A DNA stretch of 64,000 nucleotides from Cupriavidus taiwanensis (lineage in GTDB: Bacteria; Pseudomonadota; Gammaproteobacteria; Burkholderiales; Burkholderiaceae): contig NZ_LT976853.1 of the NCBI RefSeq assembly GCF_900249755.1, positions 222,011 through 286,010 on the forward strand. Reading direction: 5' to 3'. The notes beneath the pieces were generated by a model that was given only the letters and a program-made list of their open reading frames with translations, was not told where the DNA came from and made no database searches. The position numbers were made by a program, and so were the translations under genes. How positions within the stretch are numbered: the stretch's first letter is position 1; each line of letters starts with the position of its first letter. Of the stretch, positions 33,396 to 42,696 are shown one piece after another.

Positions 33396-34991
33396 TCATG
33401 ACGTGAGGTTTCGCGCCAGCGCGTCGGCATTCTGCGCGGTCAGCGCGAACACCGACAGCTGCGGATTCGCGCCAATGCTGGTCGGGAACACCGAGCCGTC
33501 GAACACCGACAGGTTGGCCAGCTGGTGATGGCGGCCGCGGCTGTCGACCACGCCGCCGCGCGGGTCGTCGCTCATGGCGCAGCCGCCCATCAGGTGCGCG
33601 GTAAACAGCGCGGTGCGGAACGGCTTGAGCGGCAGCCGCATGATGGCCTCGCGCGCTTCGGGCCAGCTGCGGTATTCGATGGCATCGAGGTGCGCGGGCC
33701 GCACGCGTTCGGCACCGGCGGCGAACTGCGCCTGCGCCATGCTCAGCCACGCGCGCCGCACGCCATCCCAGGCGTAGTCGTTCATCTCGTAGTCCAGCAG
33801 CGGGCTGCCGTCGGATGCCAGGCGCACGCGCCCGCCCGGGCTTTCCGGCACGAAGCCGTCGCGCAGCAGCGCCAGCATGGCGTTGGTGTGCGGCAGCTGC
33901 GCCATATCGCGGCGCAGCGCCTCGCCCACGCCGTTGACCACGCCCGCGCTGATGCCCGGGAACATTGGCGGCACCTCAAGCTTGTAGCCCATCGGCCCGG
34001 TCGCGCCGTGCTGCCACTGGAAGTGGTCGGAGGCGATCGACTGCGGCGCGCCATAATAAGGATCAATGCGCTCCGGCATTTTTGCAATGGTGATATTCAC
34101 CGGATGGATAAACGTGCGCAGACCCAGCCGCTGATGCGGGTCCGGCACGCGCGAGCGCAGCAGCAACGCCGGCGTGTTGATGGCGCCGCCGGCGGCGATC
34201 ACATGCCGGGCGCGCACCACCACGCCGATGCCCGTCGGGGTATAGCCGTCCGCGCCCAGCGCCTCGCCGGTGACCGAGCGCACGCGCTTGCCGTCATGGT
34301 CCAGCGTGCGCACGCGCACCCGGTGCACCAGCGTTGCCCCGCTGGCCAGCGCGGCGGGAATGGCCGAGACCAGCATCGACTGCTTGGCGTTGACCGGACA
34401 GCCGAAGCCGCAATAGCCCGAATTCCAGCAGCCCTTCACGTTGCGCGGGATCACGTGCCATTCCCAGCCCAGCGTGTCGCAGCCGCGCCTGAGCACGTCG
34501 TTGTTGGGATTGGGCGCCAGCGCCCATGGGGCGATGCCCAGGCGCGCTTCCACCTGCTGGAACCACGGCGCCATCTCGGCCTCGCTGTGGCCGGTGACGG
34601 CGTGGTGCGCGGCCCAGTGCGCCAGCGTCTGCGGCGGCGTGCGGAAGCTGGACGACCAGTTGACCGTGGTGCTGCCGCCCACCGCGCGCCCCTGCAGGAT
34701 GGCGATGGCGCCGTCGGCCGTGGTGCGCGCGGCGGCCTCCTGGTACAGCTCGCGGTAGGCGCGGTTCTCGTCCATGTCGCGGAAGCTGTCCGAGGTGCGC
34801 AGCGCGCCCTCTTCCAGCAGCACCACGCGCAGGCCGGCGCGGCTGAGCGCTTCGGCGCTGATGCCGCCGCCCGCGCCGCTGCCGACGATGACGACGTCGG
34901 CATCGAGCGTGCGCGGGGTGGTGAAGGTTGCCGCGTCCAGTACCTTCCAGCCGGCGGCGATGCCGGCATCGTAGAGATTGTCGATGGCCAT
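33396..34991 (-). CDS. GMC-family FAD-dependent oxidoreductase
   Basis: 531 residues. The Rossmann FAD motif VVIVGSGAGGGISAEAL is at about 33-49. The GMC segments GGSTTVNWSSSFRTP (about 120), the second signature AGGAINTPALLLRS (about 255) and the active-site region HLMGGCAMS with the C-terminal NPQLSVFALTAQNADALA are present. These enzymes oxidise primary or secondary alcohols, sterols or sugars. The N-terminal DNLYDAGIAAGWKVLD resembles long-chain alcohol and cholesterol-type dehydrogenases. It is 6 bp from the upstream Tat-exported small subunit, so the two probably act as a complex coupled to the respiratory chain. Confidence 0.88.
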   Translation of the reverse strand: MAIDNLYDAGIAAGWKVLDAATFTTPRTLDADVVIVGSGAGGGISAEALSRAGLRVVLLEEGALRTSDSFRDMDENRAYRELYQEAAARTTADGAIAILQGRAVGGSTTVNWSSSFRTPPQTLAHWAAHHAVTGHSEAEMAPWFQQVEARLGIAPWALAPNPNNDVLRRGCDTLGWEWHVIPRNVKGCWNSGYCGFGCPVNAKQSMLVSAIPAALASGATLVHRVRVRTLDHDGKRVRSVTGEALGADGYTPTGIGVVVRARHVIAAGGAINTPALLLRSRVPDPHQRLGLRTFIHPVNITIAKMPERIDPYYGAPQSIASDHFQWQHGATGPMGYKLEVPPMFPGISAGVVNGVGEALRRDMAQLPHTNAMLALLRDGFVPESPGGRVRLASDGSPLLDYEMNDYAWDGVRRAWLSMAQAQFAAGAERVRPAHLDAIEYRSWPEAREAIMRLPLKPFRTALFTAHLMGGCAMSDDPRGGVVDSRGRHHQLANLSVFDGSVFPTSIGANPQLSVFALTAQNADALARNLTS

Positions 34992-34997
34992 GTCGGG

Positions 34998-35603
34998 TCA
35001 GGCGTGCAGCGCCTGGTAGACGGCCGCGTTGGGGCCGGGATAGCCGCTGCCGGCCCACGCGGCCGGCAGCGCGTAGTAGCCCACGCTGACGAGCTTGACC
35101 AGCACCACCGCGCCGGCATTGAGCGTGGCCAGCCGGCTGGCGCGCCAGCGCGCCAGAAAGGCCTGCGCCTGCGCCGGGGTGGCGGCGCTCCAGTCCTGGC
35201 GGATGCCGGTCAGCGCCCAGCGCAGCGGCATGCTGGCCAGCAGGCCGAACAGCTTGCGCAGCTCGGCCTGCGCGCCCGCGCCCATCGCGGCGCAGGTGGC
35301 GTCGATATTGCGCAGCGCGTCCTGCTCAAGGGTCTGCCGGCGCGTTGGCGCGGCCTCGGCCAGTTCGGTGACGATGGCCGGCAGCAGCGCGCGGAACATC
35401 GCCACGTCGTCCGGGCGCAGGAACGCCATGCCGGCCTGCGGCGCGGGATCGGCGGACGAGCAGCCGGCCAGCGACGGCACCAGCGCGGCACACGCCAGCG
35501 CGGCGGAAAAGCCCAGGCCCACCTTGAGGAAGCCGCGCCGTGTCAGCGCGTGCAGCGCATCGGCATCGGCCACCCCGCGGTGGTGATGAGGGTTGGGGCG
35601 CAT
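34998..35603 (-). CDS. Tat-exported small subunit of a GMC dehydrogenase (gluconate 2-dehydrogenase subunit 3-like)
   Basis: 201 residues. The twin-arginine motif TRRGFLKVG (21-29), a hydrophobic stretch and a lipobox-like SLAGC (Cys48) imply export in folded form, possibly as a lipoprotein. The helical body (FRALLPAIVTELAEAAPTRR, ending with GYPGPNAAVYQALHA) is like the gamma/hitch-hiker subunit of FAD-GMC sugar and alcohol dehydrogenases. The GMC protein lacks its own signal and would be carried out by this partner. Divergent from the AraC regulator, sharing a 110-bp control region. Confidence 0.78.
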   Translation of the reverse strand: MRPNPHHHRGVADADALHALTRRGFLKVGLGFSAALACAALVPSLAGCSSADPAPQAGMAFLRPDDVAMFRALLPAIVTELAEAAPTRRQTLEQDALRNIDATCAAMGAGAQAELRKLFGLLASMPLRWALTGIRQDWSAATPAQAQAFLARWRASRLATLNAGAVVLVKLVSVGYYALPAAWAGSGYPGPNAAVYQALHA

Positions 35604-35713
35604 CTTGTCTCCTTGCGTCAGGCTCTTGGTTTCGGTCTGGTGTGCGGGCGGGCAGGCCCGCATTGACGCTACCCGGAGTTTGGATAAAGATCGGTGCCCG
35701 GTCTTGATCCCGC

Positions 35714-37072: not shown

Positions 37073-38686
37073 ATGAATGCACCCGCGGAGTTGCCGCCGC
37101 AGCTGGCAGCGCAGGCAAAGCCGGCACAGCCGACCCGGCAGCCGGCACCCCCTGCCCCCGAGCACACCGACATCGCCATCATCGGCAGCGGCTTTGCCGG
37201 CCTGGGCATGGCGATCCGGCTGCGCCAGCGCGGCGAGCACGATTTCCTGGTGTTCGAGAAGGCCGGCTCGGTCGGCGGCACCTGGCGCGACAACCACTAT
37301 CCCGGCTGCGCCTGCGATGTGCAGTCGCACCTGTATTCGTTTTCCTTCGCGCCCAACCCGGACTGGTCGCGCATGTTCTCGACCCAGCCGGAGATCCGCG
37401 CCTACCTGGAACACTGCACCGACCGCTTCGGCCTGCGCCCGCACCTGCGGCTGCACCATGAACTGCGCCACGCCGCGTGGGACGAGTCCGCGCAGCTGTG
37501 GCGGCTGCAGATGGCCGACGGCAAGGAGGTGCGCGCGCGCGTGCTGGTGTCAGGCATGGGCGGTTTGAGCCGGCCTGCGTATCCCGATATCCCGGGGCTG
37601 GACACGTTCGAAGGCGAATGCTTCCACTCGCAGCACTGGAACCACGCCTATGCGCTGCGCGGCAAGCGCGTGGCGGTGATCGGCACCGGCGCCAGCGCGA
37701 TCCAGTTCGTGCCGCAGATCGCGCCGCAGGTGGCGCAGTTGGACCTGTACCAGCGCACCCCGCCGTGGATCATGCCCAAGCCCGACCGCGAGGTCAGCGC
37801 CGCCGAGCGCTGGCTGTTCCGCCGCCTGCCGTTCACGCAGACGCTGGTGCGCACCGGCATCTACTGGATGCTGGAGTCGCGCGTGCTGGGCTTCGTGCTG
37901 CATCCGAAGATCATGAAGGTGGTGGAGCGCGTCGCGCGCCGCCATCTGGCACGGCAGGTGCGCGACCCCGCGCTGCGCGCGGCGCTGACGCCGGACTACA
38001 CCATCGGCTGCAAGCGCGTGCTGATCTCCAACGACTACTACCCGGCGCTCACGCGCGACAACGTCGGCGTGGTCACCACCGGCATCGCCCGCGTCGAGCG
38101 CGACGCGGTGGTGCTGCGCGATGGCACGCGCCGGCCGGCCGACTGCATCATCCTCGGCACCGGCTTCCATGCGACCGACCCGCTGCCGCGCGGCGTGATC
38201 GCCGGCATCGGCGGCGTCGACCTGGTCGATGCGTGGCGCGACGGCGCGCAGGCCTACCTGGGCACCACCGTCGCGGGCTTCCCCAACCTGTTCTTCGTGG
38301 TCGGCCCCAACACCGGCCTGGGGCACAGCTCGATGGTGTTCATGATCGAGTCGCAGGTGGCGTATATCGCCGACGCGCTGCGCCAGATGCGCCGCGCAGG
38401 CGTGCAGGCGGTGGACGTGCGCGAGCCGGTGCAGCGCCGCTTCAACGACAAGCTGCAGGCCCGGCTGGGCCATGCGATCTGGTCCGCCGGCGGCTGCGCC
38501 AGCTGGTACATCGACCCGCGCAGCGGCCGCAACACCACGCTGTGGCCGGGCTTCACCTGGCAGTTCCGCCGCGCCACCGCCAGCTTCCGCATGACCGACT
38601 ACGACCTGTACCCGGTGCGGCACGCGTTGCCGGACGAGAACGCGCTGCAGCCATCGGCGGACATCGCCACCGCCGCCCGCGCGTGA
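37073..38686 (+). CDS. Flavin-containing Baeyer-Villiger-type monooxygenase
   Basis: 537 residues. FAD motif IAIIGSGFAGLGMA (about 34-47), the characteristic SVGGTWRDNHYPGCACD (about 74-90), the BVMO fingerprint FEGECFHSQHWN (about 178-189; the usual residue after W is P or D, here N) and the NADPH motif AVIGTGASAIQ (about 202-212). It inserts an oxygen into a ketone to give an ester, or hydroxylates a chain, using NADPH and O2. A 258-bp upstream region with AT-rich stretches (36960-36970) is its control region. The downstream SDR, hydrolase and possible di-iron oxygenase fit an alcohol-ketone-ester-acid route. Confidence 0.9.
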   Translation: MNAPAELPPQLAAQAKPAQPTRQPAPPAPEHTDIAIIGSGFAGLGMAIRLRQRGEHDFLVFEKAGSVGGTWRDNHYPGCACDVQSHLYSFSFAPNPDWSRMFSTQPEIRAYLEHCTDRFGLRPHLRLHHELRHAAWDESAQLWRLQMADGKEVRARVLVSGMGGLSRPAYPDIPGLDTFEGECFHSQHWNHAYALRGKRVAVIGTGASAIQFVPQIAPQVAQLDLYQRTPPWIMPKPDREVSAAERWLFRRLPFTQTLVRTGIYWMLESRVLGFVLHPKIMKVVERVARRHLARQVRDPALRAALTPDYTIGCKRVLISNDYYPALTRDNVGVVTTGIARVERDAVVLRDGTRRPADCIILGTGFHATDPLPRGVIAGIGGVDLVDAWRDGAQAYLGTTVAGFPNLFFVVGPNTGLGHSSMVFMIESQVAYIADALRQMRRAGVQAVDVREPVQRRFNDKLQARLGHAIWSAGGCASWYIDPRSGRNTTLWPGFTWQFRRATASFRMTDYDLYPVRHALPDENALQPSADIATAARA

Positions 38687-38741: not shown

Positions 38742-39632
38742 ATGAAGGACTTCCGCAACAAGGTTGCCGCGATCACCGGCGCCGGCTCGGGCATCGGCCG
38801 TGCGCTGGCGCTGGCGCTGGCACGCGAGGGCTGCCAGCTGGCGCTGTCGGACCGCAACGAGGCCGGGCTGGCGCAGACCGCGGCGCAGGCCATGGCCGCG
38901 GCGCCGCATGCCCGTATCACGCAGCACACCGTGGATGTGGCCGACCGCGCCGCGGTGTACGCGTGGGCCGCCGCGGCCGCTGAGGCCCACGGCCGCGTCA
39001 ACCTCATCGTCAACAACGCCGGCGTGGCGCTGTCCAGCACGGTCGAGGGCATGAGCTACGACGACCTGGAATGGATCATCAGCATCAACTTCTGGGGCGT
39101 GGTGTACGGCACCAAGGCCTTCCTGCCGTACCTGAAGGCCAGCGGCGACGGCCACGTGGTCAATACCTCGAGCATCTTCGGCATCTTCGCCCAGCCCGGC
39201 ATGGGCGCCTACAACGCCAGCAAGTACGCGGTGCGCGGCTTTACCGAAGCGCTGCGGCAGGAGCTGGACCTGATGGACTGCGGCGTGTCGGCCACCACCG
39301 TGCATCCCGGGGGCATCAAGACCAATATCGCGCAGGCCAGCCGCGTCTCGGCCAGCGTCAACGGCTTCCTGGTGCGCGACGCGCAGCACGGCAAGGACGA
39401 GTTCGAGAAGTTCTTCATCACCTCGCCCGACAAGGCCGCGCGCGTGATCCTGGAGGGCGTGCGGCGCAACCGCCGGCGCGTGCTGATCGGGCCCGATGCC
39501 TACGCCGCCGATGCCATGGCGCGGCTGCTGCCCGCCGCTTACCAGTCGCTGGTGGTGCGCGAGACGCGCCGCAAGCGCGATCTGGGCAACGTGGTGGCGC
39601 CCGCTTCGGTGGGCCAGGGAGAACGCCCGTGA
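38742..39632 (+). CDS. Short-chain dehydrogenase/reductase
   Basis: 296 residues. TGAGSGIG (12-19) binds NAD(P), NNAG follows at about 90, and the catalytic Ser/Tyr/Lys are in TSSIFG and YNASK (about 157-161). The C-terminal 60 residues are longer than minimal SDRs, as in many SDRs found next to BVMO genes. It would interconvert an alcohol and a ketone, delivering the BVMO substrate or handling its product. An AAGGAGA lies 7 bp before ATG 38742. Its stop overlaps the GTG of the next gene (GTGA). Confidence 0.92.
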   Translation: MKDFRNKVAAITGAGSGIGRALALALAREGCQLALSDRNEAGLAQTAAQAMAAAPHARITQHTVDVADRAAVYAWAAAAAEAHGRVNLIVNNAGVALSSTVEGMSYDDLEWIISINFWGVVYGTKAFLPYLKASGDGHVVNTSSIFGIFAQPGMGAYNASKYAVRGFTEALRQELDLMDCGVSATTVHPGGIKTNIAQASRVSASVNGFLVRDAQHGKDEFEKFFITSPDKAARVILEGVRRNRRRVLIGPDAYAADAMARLLPAAYQSLVVRETRRKRDLGNVVAPASVGQGERP

Positions 39633-40588
39633 ACCGCCTGGCGATGGAAGCGGACGCGGCGCTGCTGGCGCCGCCCGGCGCGCTCACGCGCTGGTTCGGG
39701 CAGGGCCGCGTGGGCCTGTTCAGCCTGTCGCGCGCCACGCTGGCGCAGCGCCATGCGCTGCCGGCGTCGCGCTGGGTGCGCGTGCTCGATGCCATGGTCC
39801 ACTACACCGACGAAGGCCCCGCCGACGGCGAGGTCCTGGTGCTGATCCACGGCTTCGGCGCGTCGCTGCATACGTGGCAGGGCATCGTGCCGGCGCTGGC
39901 GCAACGCTATCGCGTGCTGCGGCTGGACCTGGCCCCGTTCGGACTGACCGGGCCGCTGCGCGACGCGCGCGGGCGCATCGAGACCATGGACGTGCACCGC
40001 TACCGCGACTTCATCGATGCCTTCCTGGCCGCGGTGAACGTGCGCCGCGCCAGCATCGTCGGCAATTCGCTGGGCGGGCTGATCGCTTGGGACCTCGCGG
40101 TGCGCAGGCCGAATGCGGTCGACAAGCTGGTGCTGATCGATGCCGCCGGCTTCCCGATGAAGCTGCCCATCTACATCGACCTGTTCCGCCATGCGCCGGT
40201 GCGCTGGTCGGCGCCGTGGCTGCTGCCCGAGTGCATCATCCGCGCCGCCACGCGCGACGTCTACGGCGATGCCTCACGCGTGCCGGAAGCCACCTTCCGC
40301 CGCTACGTCGACTTCTTCTATGCCGAAGGCAGCCGCGAGGCCGTCGGCAAGATGGTGCCGAAGCTCGACTTCGCCCAGCTCGACACCCACCTGCTCGGCA
40401 GCGTGCGCGCGCCGACGCTGGTGCTGTGGGGCGAGCGCGACCGCTGGATTCCGCCCGCGCACGCGCAGGCCTTTGCCGAACGCATTCCCGGCGCGCAGCT
40501 GCGCCGCCATGCCGGCCTTGGCCACGTGCCGATGGAAGAAGACCCGCAACGCGTGGCCGCGGACCTGCTGCCCTTTCTGGCTCAATGA
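39629..40588 (+). CDS. Alpha/beta hydrolase
   Basis: 319 residues from GTG 39629, chosen because it overlaps the SDR stop by 4 bp. Oxyanion motif LIHGFGASLHTW (about 71-82), nucleophile elbow VGNSLGGL (Ser about 146), acid in WGERDRWIPP and His in GLGHVPMEEDP form the catalytic triad. It would hydrolyse the ester made by the BVMO to an alcohol and an acid. It is tightly packed in the operon, and the downstream gene begins within or just after its stop. Confidence 0.9.
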   Translation: MNRLAMEADAALLAPPGALTRWFGQGRVGLFSLSRATLAQRHALPASRWVRVLDAMVHYTDEGPADGEVLVLIHGFGASLHTWQGIVPALAQRYRVLRLDLAPFGLTGPLRDARGRIETMDVHRYRDFIDAFLAAVNVRRASIVGNSLGGLIAWDLAVRRPNAVDKLVLIDAAGFPMKLPIYIDLFRHAPVRWSAPWLLPECIIRAATRDVYGDASRVPEATFRRYVDFFYAEGSREAVGKMVPKLDFAQLDTHLLGSVRAPTLVLWGERDRWIPPAHAQAFAERIPGAQLRRHAGLGHVPMEEDPQRVAADLLPFLAQ

Positions 40589-40611: not shown

Positions 40612-41487
40612 ATGATGCCAGTCCGCCGCGACGTGCATCCCCACCTGCCGCCTGAGCGCATCTGCGACTGGCACGAGCGGGGCCGACACGTCACCCATTT
40701 CCTCAACACGCTGTCCATCTTCTTCCCCGCCGGCGAACGCTTTTTCATGGACAGCGTGCGCAACTACCGCGACCAGGTAAAGGACCCCGAACTGAGCCGC
40801 GCCATCGCCGGCTTTATCGGCCAGGAGGCGATGCACACGCGCGAGCACATTCTCTACAACCGGCTGATGGAAGACGCCGGCCTGCCCGCCGCGGCGCTGG
40901 ACCGCGCGGTGTGGAAGCTGCTGGACCTGCTGCGCAGGATCCTGCCCCAGTCCTGGCAGCTGGCGCATACCATCGCGCTGGAGCACTACACCGCGATGCT
41001 GGCCGACGGCGTGCTGAAAGACGCGCGCCACCTCGGCGCGGAGTCGCAGACCGGCTACCGGCAGGTGTGGACCTGGCACGCGCTCGAAGAAACCGAGCAC
41101 AAGGCGGTGGCCTACGACGTCTGGAACACCGTGATGAAGCCCGGCCCTTACCGCTACTTCGTGCGCACCTTCACCATGCTGACCACCACGGTGACGTTCT
41201 GGGCCATGGTGTTCGTGTTTCATCTCGCACTGGTGATGGGCGACAAGGGCTGCCGCAACAAGCTGAGCGGATTCGGCAGCGCGCTGCGCTTCCTGTGGGT
41301 GTCGCCCGGCGCGCTGCCGCGCATGATCCCGGAGTGGCTCAGCTACTTCCGCCCCGGCTTCCATCCGTGGGACGACGACAACCGCGCCGAACTCGCGCGC
41401 ATCGACCCGCTGGTCCGGGAAATCGAAGACACCGCGCGCGCCGCCGGGGTCTCCACGCGGGCGCCGTCGCTGCGGGGGACGGCATGA
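40612..41487 (+). CDS. PF10118-type 'metal-dependent hydrolase' with a ferritin-like di-iron ligand pattern; candidate oxygenase
   Basis: 291 residues. Databases usually call this family metal-dependent hydrolase, but the visible ligands are E42 (PAGERFF), E72xxH75 (QEAMH), E124 (LEHYTA) and E160xxH163 (ETEH). This is the E...ExxH...E...ExxH pattern of ferritin-like di-iron carboxylate proteins, with 30, 52 and 36 residue gaps. A hydrophobic segment at about 184-210 could anchor it in the membrane. ATG 40612 has AAGGAGA upstream; ATG 40585 overlapping the hydrolase stop would add nine residues. The rubredoxin gene overlaps its stop by 4 bp, pointing to an electron-transfer partner. Family assignment by recall; di-iron function is inference. 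Confidence 0.8.
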
Positions 41488-41648
41488 CCATCTGGCAGTG
41501 CCGTATCTGTGGATTCGTCTATGAAGAAGCGCTCGGCATGCCCGAGCACGGCATCGCGCCCGGCACACCGTGGGGCGCGGTCCCGCCGGAATGGAGCTGC
41601 CCGGACTGCGGCATGGCGAAAGCGGATTTCGACATGGTTGCGGTATAG
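41484..41648 (+). CDS. Rubredoxin
   Basis: 54 residues, a normal rubredoxin. Two metal-binding knuckles, CRIC (Cys6/Cys9) and CPDC (Cys39/Cys42), hold a single Fe atom, and W30/W37 and F48 form the aromatic core. It overlaps the preceding gene by ATGA, so it is translated with it. Rubredoxins pass electrons to di-iron oxygenases such as AlkB, and the partner upstream has a di-iron ligand set. No rubredoxin reductase gene lies nearby. It is the last gene of the BVMO operon. Confidence 0.95.
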
Positions 41649-41716: not shown

Positions 41717-41850
41717 AGCTCCCCTCTCCCGCGTGCGGGAGAGGGGGTGGGGGTGAGGGCCGGTGTGTCCGCGAAGTCGAAGCCTGCGGTATGCCAGCGC
41801 CTGCCCTCACCCCCTGCCCCTCTCCCGCAAGCGGGAGAGGGGAGCAAACC
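41717..41850. repeat. REPIN-like palindromic repeat, family B, copy 2
   Basis: CTCTCCCGC/GCGGGAGAG hairpins at both ends and a core (GAAGCCTGCGGTATGCCAGC) closely matching the copy at 54.1 kb. It lies between the convergent rubredoxin and MerR genes. Confidence 0.85.
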
Positions 41851-41859
41851 GCCAGCGTG

Positions 41860-42696
41860 CTAGGGCTTTGCGGGCCCCCCACCCTCCTCATCATGCAAAT
41901 GCTCGATGATCGCCGCCACCCTGTCCCCCAGGTACTTGTTGGCCGAGATCTCCAGCGCCCGCATCATCTCCGTCTCTGCCATCACCAGCGCCAGCGGGCG
42001 GATGCGCCACAGGATGTCCACCAGCCGCGGCACGTCCTGCGGCGGCGGCAGCTTGCCTTCGCCGAAGCGGTCCAGCTCGCGCACCACGGTGGCGACGATC
42101 TGGTCCGAGACCGCCTGGAAGTGCCCGCGTGACTGCGCGATGATCTCCAGCACGTCTTCCAGCGCAAAGCCCGCGTGCGCGATCTCCGCGCCCGCGGCCA
42201 GCGCGCGCGGGCTGCGGGCCAGGTAGCCCAGCCCGTCAGGTTCCAGCAGCCCCAGCGAGATCGCCTTGGCCAGCGCCGGGCGCGAGATCGCGCGGCCGAA
42301 CAGCCGCGCCAGCGCCAGGTAGGAATAGTGGCGCGGGGTCTCGTTGGTCCACGGGCTGCTGATCGCGGTTTCCAGTCCCAGGATCGAGCGCAGGTCGTGG
42401 CCTTCGACGATGGCCTTGAGCAGCTCGGTGATATTGGCCAGCGTGTAGCCGCGCGCCAGCAGGTGGTGGATCAGCTTGAGCCGCCCCAGGTGCGCCTGCG
42501 TGTAGATGCCGACCCGGCCGCGCCGCTGCGGCGGGTCGATCAGGCCGCGGTCCTGGTACGAGCGCACATTGCGCACCGTGGTGCCGGCCGCGCGCGCCAG
42601 TTCGTCGATGGTGTATTCCGGGGCGGGCGGCGCGCCGGAGGCGGCGGACCCCGGGCGGGGCGAAGACGGAGGTTGGCGGCGCCGGGTCAGTGTCAT
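41860..42696 (-). CDS. MerR-family transcriptional regulator
   Basis: 278 residues, large for the family. A disordered Pro/Ser-rich head (1-27) is followed by the winged HTH (YTIDELARAAGTTVRNVRSY, then DRGLIDPPQRRGRVGIYTQA) at about 28-95, and a 180-residue helical effector domain with no metal-binding Cys pattern. Its stop faces the BVMO operon, and it is divergent from the LysR gene with 95 bp between starts. It is probably a regulator of a metabolic gene; the target is unknown. The start ATG 42694-42696 was chosen because no closer start precedes the HTH without shortening it. Confidence 0.82.
   Translation of the reverse strand: MTLTRRRQPPSSPRPGSAASGAPPAPEYTIDELARAAGTTVRNVRSYQDRGLIDPPQRRGRVGIYTQAHLGRLKLIHHLLARGYTLANITELLKAIVEGHDLRSILGLETAISSPWTNETPRHYSYLALARLFGRAISRPALAKAISLGLLEPDGLGYLARSPRALAAGAEIAHAGFALEDVLEIIAQSRGHFQAVSDQIVATVVRELDRFGEGKLPPPQDVPRLVDILWRIRPLALVMAETEMMRALEISANKYLGDRVAAIIEHLHDEEGGGPAKP

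Follow-up and report, generated by a model that had tools for sequence, protein, structure and literature searches.

The gene at positions 40612..41487 (plus strand, 876 bp, 291 aa) of a 64,000-nucleotide stretch of the Cupriavidus taiwanensis genome (contig NZ_LT976853.1, positions 222,011 to 286,010; this whole stretch is referred to as the window) encodes a protein of the Pfam family PF10118 (score 282.9 bits, cut-off 33.2), known by the name "metal-dependent hydrolase". From the sequence and predicted structures, this protein is, with high confidence, a di-metal ferritin-like protein, and the hydrolase label is almost certainly wrong. As the best single mechanism, and with a fair degree of probability, it may be a di-iron oxygenase of the Baeyer-Villiger monooxygenase (BVMO) pathway of the same operon, with the rubredoxin encoded directly behind it as electron donor. 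An in-frame ATG is also present at 40585; in close relatives the start corresponds to 40612 or 40615, and the sequence AAGGAG is located upstream of 40612.

The original prediction, made from the sequence of the window, had pointed out four Glu and two His residues in the spacing of di-iron enzymes, and the translation bears this out. The predicted metal ligands are E42 (codon at 40735..40737), E72 and H75 within the QExxH motif Q71-E72-A-M-H75 (40822..40836), E124 (40981..40983), and E160 and H163 within the HxxEExxH motif H156-A-L-E159-E160-T-E-H163 (41077..41100), all on the plus strand, with gaps of 30 residues between E42 and E72 and of 36 between E124 and E160. Conservation was examined in an alignment of 52 rows (A1), which includes the window protein (P0001), 28 of 29 loci taken from a hidden Markov model search across 249 genomes (the own locus not counted), and 23 of the 120 listed phmmer proteins. 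All six residues were invariant in 52/52 rows, as were Q71, H79, H125, H156, E159, E162, and D169. In a second check on 201 rows, overlapping with A1 and consisting of P0001, the 120 phmmer proteins, and 80 contig loci, the nine site positions (E42, Q71, E72, H75, E124, H156, E159, E160, and H163) were all intact in 200, the sole exception (P0019) having Q at position 156. The 80 contig loci had been found by two patterns, one of which was WHAxEExEH, and the conservation among them is therefore partly built in.

The most divergent members were then considered as a group of 18, that is, all the full-length PF10118 matches listed below 220 bits (105-216 bits against the A1 profile); four incomplete or sub-cut-off matches (G131, G686, and two halves from G680) were set aside. 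Eight of the nine site positions, including the six predicted ligands, were intact in 18/18, and residue 71 was Q in nine and E in nine. The nine members with EExxH in place of QExxH (L225-L228, L236-L239, and L242) may differ in chemistry. In a mostly divergent alignment of 22 rows (A4), composed of 17 of these 18 members and five others, the only invariant columns were the six residues together with H156 and E159. Because E, ExxH, E, and HxxEExxH are the sole features kept by the family, they are best read as a metal site. The loose six-residue pattern was found in 158 of 20,000 shuffles of the PF10118 protein, and in 7 of 20,000 when a His at position E-4 (counted back from the Glu of the final ExxH) was also required; for the six-residue pattern, conservation is a stronger test than this estimate of chance. 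The His at E-4 was present with the same spacing of four in 52/52 rows of A1.

The predicted fold agrees with the site. For two AlphaFold models with predicted local distance difference test scores of 95 and 89, all of the 50 VIA-align matches listed for each were di-metal ferritin-like proteins; R2lox, R2, stearoyl-ACP desaturase, and aldehyde-deformylating oxygenase are among the structural matches. The predicted model is a ferritin-like helical bundle with the ligands on four helices, E42 being located in helix 25-50, E72 and H75 in helix 59-88, E124 in helix 113-136, and E160 in helix 147-162; H163 lies just beyond the end of the last helix. No meaningful direct match of the PF10118 protein to a sequence in the PDB was obtained. 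The alternative that Pfam and NCBI have named the protein correctly, as a real metal-dependent hydrolase, has in its favour only the family name and the listing of a PF10118 group among candidate proteases in PMC8960859. It is nevertheless highly improbable, given that E/ExxH/E/HxxEExxH is the sole invariant set, that both models show the di-metal carboxylate fold, and that the family is homologous to AurF (see below). No hydrolase was present among the 50 structural matches listed, an absence that by itself does not exclude one. The replacement of the hydrolase by a ferritin-like di-metal protein, as proposed originally, is thus upheld by residues, fold, and homology, and the oxygenase activity proposed with it stays conditional.

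A hydrophobic helix following the ligands, also predicted originally, is present in the model at residues 179-210 (best 19-residue Kyte-Doolittle mean, 1.85). Its extension to a membrane association did not hold as a family property: only 27/52 members of A1 reach a Kyte-Doolittle value of 1.6 in this helix, and a membrane enzyme is unsupported family-wide.

The ligand set agrees with the originally suggested likeness to ribonucleotide reductase (RNR) R2 and methane monooxygenase, but the closest type of site is that of AurF and CylC, and the third histidine had been missed. RNR R2, R2lox, and the soluble methane monooxygenase hydroxylase share with PF10118 both the ferritin-like fold and the ligand pattern E/ExxH/E/ExxH. 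PF10118 differs from them in the extra conserved His at E-4, most di-iron hydroxylases having two His according to PMC12101540. In the same paper, AurF is described as having H139, E196, and H230 and a site of the 3-His/4-carboxylate kind, with D135 and D226 as its hydrogen-bonding partners, and CylC homologues with the motifs QExxH and HxxDExxH; the legend of a model of AzoC (PMC6783550) lists Glu102, Glu137, His140, Glu198, His225, Glu229, and His232. The order E42, Q71-E72xxH75, E124, H156xxE159-E160xxH163 of PF10118 is the same as that of these AurF, CylC, and AzoC sites as far as described, and H156 is therefore likely to be the third His ligand. By site, PF10118 would thus be nearest to AurF/CmlI and CylC/NocO, which have the third His at E-4, and less close to plain RNR R2 or methane monooxygenase.

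Neither pair is identical to PF10118 in the published descriptions consulted. AurF and CmlI have Asp before the first ExxH, where PF10118 has Q or E, and their Asp226 corresponds to E159. CylC and NocO share the QExxH motif, a His placed three residues ahead of the last motif's acidic residue, and another two Glu, which make up the nine-position set, but they carry HxxDExxH in place of HxxEExxH (Asp for E159), and the combination of QExxH with HxxDExxH is not found in PF10118. Moreover, their Glu matching E124 is not absolutely conserved and is likely no ligand, whereas E124 is invariant in PF10118. These two proteins also come from other organisms and another gene context, and were compared by published description only.

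Homology to AurF was detected at low but recurrent levels. In three of 150 genomes, an AurF search gave matches that overlap PF10118 genes in their coordinates, with expectation (E) values from 1.7e-5 to 6.2e-4 and scores short of the AurF cut-off, and the Pfam model of AurF (PF11583) matched 14/52 members of A1 at E up to 1 (best, 9.2e-6) and 3/22 members of A4 at E up to 0.1. The bit scores seen for three of these 14 members were all under the cut-off; no PF10118 member scanned was seen to reach it (best, 25.5 against 29.6 bits), and P0001 itself gave no AurF match. The AurF-like protein L153, itself just under the AurF cut-off, matched both families (1.8e-6 and 0.0071). When 29 diverse PF10118 rows were compared by HHalign with the five-row group of L153, 198 columns were aligned (P 8.6e-4), and E42, E72, H75, E124, H156, E159, E160, and H163 each stood opposite an E or H of the same kind. 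A global run gave two columns only, and a local run was in register but with P 0.28; alignments against the mixed AurF sets A2, fdoA, and fdoB were out of register or insignificant. NCBIfam has no model for the PF10118 protein, and over A1 gave only scattered weak matches to single members.

Two rival functions of the di-metal site draw on the same relatives. One is a di-iron enzyme that is no C-H hydroxylase, such as an AurF-like N-oxygenase, a CylC-like halogenase, or an acyl-chain desaturase or oxidase. AurF and CylC have the same arrangement of HxxEExxH with a third His, Q71 matches the glutamine of CylC and NocO (PMC12101540), the AurF model cross-matches PF10118 members, and stearoyl-ACP desaturase and aldehyde-deformylating oxygenase are among the structural matches; yet CylC and NocO have D at the place of E159, and the neighbouring genes for a short-chain dehydrogenase/reductase (SDR), a BVMO, and an esterase-like protein suit C-H hydroxylation better, making this alternative unlikely though well worth keeping in mind. 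The other is a di-metal protein with no catalytic role for O2 in the pathway, acting as R2lox or in iron or peroxide handling, the rubredoxin then serving a rubrerythrin-type peroxidase reduction. R2lox and R2 are indeed structural matches, and weak Pfam matches to Rubrerythrin were found in 4/52 members of A1, but AurF outscores Rubrerythrin as a relative and the linkage to BVMO and SDR is tight, so that this role is judged improbable.

The PF10118 gene is the fourth of a tight run of five on the plus strand, BVMO-SDR-alpha/beta hydrolase-PF10118-rubredoxin. The first gene (37073..38686) encodes a Baeyer-Villiger monooxygenase-like or flavin-containing monooxygenase (FMO)-like flavin enzyme (PF00743, 56.6 bits), the second (38742..39632) the SDR (PF00106, 162 bits), and the third (39629..40588), identified by Pfam, the alpha/beta hydrolase, the probable GTG start of which gives a 4-bp overlap with the SDR stop. 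An AraC-family regulator (PF12625 and PF12833; 35714..36814, plus strand) is located upstream of the run, and a MerR-family regulator (Pfam; 41860..42630, minus strand, start not fixed) faces the operon from downstream. Apart from PF10118, the run includes no hydroxylase.

Among the Cupriavidus loci (30 read of 43 PF10118 matches listed from 40 genomes), SDR and alpha/beta hydrolase genes were located upstream of PF10118 in all 30, and a MerR homologue downstream in 26, two of the four misses being near contig ends. For related genera, BVMO and SDR were directly upstream in 17/23 loci. Among the 80 wider contig loci, a BVMO-like gene (at least 80 bits) was found in 35, an SDR in 40, and MerR anywhere in the sequence covered in 25, with the order BVMO-SDR-PF10118 in 23; the nearest BVMO was within 3 kb in 35/35 loci having one, and the nearest SDR in 39/40. 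The own genome of 5.95 Mb has three FMO-like genes over the cut-off. BVMO and SDR are the recurrent partners of PF10118. A Pfam scan of the 61 nearest open reading frames (ORFs) in 32 of the 80 loci gave AraC (5), FMO-like (4), alpha/beta hydrolase (3), MerR (3), and SDR (2), in a scan that covered the 25 commonest of 61 families and used longest-frame ORFs, which can miss genes or take frames on the wrong strand and are too noisy for cluster counts.

Of the plasmid-borne members, one of Mycolicibacterium lies beside an SDR, flavin oxidoreductases, and an alpha/beta hydrolase, one of Mycobacterium near genes for an acyl-CoA ligase, an alcohol dehydrogenase, and R2lox, and one of Acinetobacter near P450, ferredoxin, flavoprotein, and thioesterase genes. 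One member from Marinobacter had no such neighbours, and one further stretch carried no annotation. On the Acinetobacter plasmid just mentioned, pAR3 of Acinetobacter radioresistens (L170), PF10118 is located between Tn3-like transposases together with cytochrome P450, ferredoxin, and flavoprotein genes; a PF10118 match is present in 56 Acinetobacter plasmid records, of which the context was read for pAR3 alone.

For a gene set of this kind, textbooks give hydroxylation first, then oxidation of the alcohol, the Baeyer-Villiger reaction, and hydrolysis of the ester, and PF10118 would probably supply the hydroxylation at the head of this pathway. The six residues and H156 as third histidine would hold two irons, and the reduced di-iron centre would bind O2 and insert oxygen into a C-H bond of a likely hydrophobic substrate. 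The electrons would probably come from the rubredoxin. The SDR could then oxidise the resulting alcohol to a ketone, and the BVMO convert the ketone to a lactone or ester, to be opened by the alpha/beta hydrolase. The setting in a BVMO pathway that had been claimed for this gene stands for the adjoining BVMO-SDR-alpha/beta hydrolase operon, its role in oxidation remaining a proposal.

The rubredoxin gene (41484..41648, plus strand) encodes a protein of 54 aa (PF00301, 70.5 against 23 bits) with two CxxCG clusters, CRICG and CPDCG. As noted in the original prediction, it shares 4 bp with the end of the PF10118 gene, its ATG (41484) and the PF10118 stop (41485-41487) together reading ATGA. This rubredoxin is plausibly an optional dedicated donor to the PF10118 enzyme. 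The same overlap was found in 13/13 intact copies among the 30 Cupriavidus loci; one further locus (L195) carries a linked rubredoxin with one of the four cysteines changed to glycine, an apparent decay, and 16 have none. As judged from the gene sequences, the linked rubredoxin is under purifying selection, the ratio of nonsynonymous to synonymous differences (pN/pS) being 0.22 (uncorrected, ratio of means, 78 pairs). On the PF10118 tree, the linkage needs four changes when L195 is scored as absent, and the simplest story, on an unverified root, would be that the linked rubredoxin was ancestral in the genus and then lost repeatedly.

The expectation that the rubredoxin neighbour would be conserved across the family failed. 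In addition to its presence in only 14/30 Cupriavidus loci, a linked rubredoxin was found in 0/23 loci of other genera of the family (within 1.4 kb downstream) and in 1/80 wider loci, of which 66 span at least 16.6 kb; this one (L034) has a PF10118 protein 98% identical to that of the window. The phylum sample gave 2/30 loci, the own locus and G015, and no PF10118 gene was present in the flanks (up to 1.5 kb) of the 29 non-self rubredoxin loci most like the window rubredoxin (P0002). Rubredoxin as a conserved partner of the family is rejected. In G015, of the same class by kinship, AraC, PF10118 (25% identical), and rubredoxin genes are accompanied by genes for an SDR and an FMO-like protein on the opposite strand, all five confirmed by Pfam, and the distance between the rubredoxin start and the beginning of the PF10118 stop codon is 4 or 16 nt.

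That the rubredoxin is no partner at all, the operon just carrying it as a small unrelated gene, agrees with its absence from most loci examined, with the lost cysteine of L195, and with the presence of at least two rubredoxin genes in each of the 30 Cupriavidus genomes searched (three, beside a single PF10118 gene, in the own genome). This reading is nonetheless doubtful, though not lightly dismissed, in view of the overlap fixed in all intact copies, the low pN/pS, and the recurrence of the pair with AraC, SDR, and FMO-like genes in the distant G015. The patchy linkage and the two or more rubredoxins in every Cupriavidus genome searched make the linked rubredoxin a plausible but optional donor, and strains without it could draw on another of their rubredoxins. 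NocO, as described in PMC12101540, is supplied by ferredoxin, ferredoxin reductase, and NADPH in the chlorination of an aliphatic acyl chain.

A possible rubredoxin-fed di-iron oxidation recalls AlkB with AlkG. AlkB alkane monooxygenases are membrane proteins of the fatty-acid-desaturase family with His boxes. The PF10118 protein differs in that its only Pfam match at E up to 0.1 is PF10118 itself, with none to the fatty-acid desaturases; the two CxxCG clusters of the window rubredoxin are as in AlkG2 (PMC8918992). A second, separate ferritin-like protein is encoded in the own genome (L157, G000:C1:392222-392584, minus strand), with FA_desaturase_2 at 31.4 bits against a cut-off of 22.7 and weak AurF and Rubrerythrin matches.

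Proteins similar to that of the window numbered at least 5,206 in one search (7,999 candidates scored), the best 120 listed all having PF10118, and a PF10118 gene was present in 39/249 sampled genomes of the phylum, with up to nine copies in one. The listed proteins are named mostly "metal-dependent hydrolase" and are otherwise uncharacterised. In a literature search with incomplete listings and few subscription papers, PF10118 was named in one paper, no account of it as a di-iron enzyme was met, and COG3687 and UCP07580/PIRSF007580/IPR016516 were not mentioned. A wider proposal is put forward tentatively, with somewhat less than even confidence: all PF10118 proteins may be unrecognised three-histidine di-iron oxygenases of the AurF/CylC type, acting on unactivated C-H bonds of lipids or hydrocarbons, and the protein of the window may be the missing, rubredoxin-coupled hydroxylase that opens subterminal degradation through the BVMO. 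If the PF10118 proteins are di-iron oxygenases, many oxidation enzymes have so far gone unnoticed, among them relatives in Alcanivorax and Marinobacter and on Acinetobacter and mycobacterial plasmids, and the three-His site, termed largely unique to N-oxygenases in PMC12101540, would extend to an apparently catabolic family. Searches that trust the hydrolase name may go astray, as may be the case for the protease listing in PMC8960859. The rubredoxin would allow a defined electron-transfer assay at once.

Several other features were noted around the operon. At 33396-35666 (minus strand) lie genes for a GMC oxidoreductase and a small companion protein, both pointing away from the AraC gene; the companion has, by eye, a twin-arginine-like stretch and no credible Pfam match, and homologues of both are also located near the operon in loci L034 and L035. 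The interval in which the rubredoxin and MerR genes converge holds, as judged by eye, an inverted repeat that is long but imperfect (41717-41850), and in the Cupriavidus loci L185 and L191, which have no linked rubredoxin, its place is occupied by other repeat-rich DNA.
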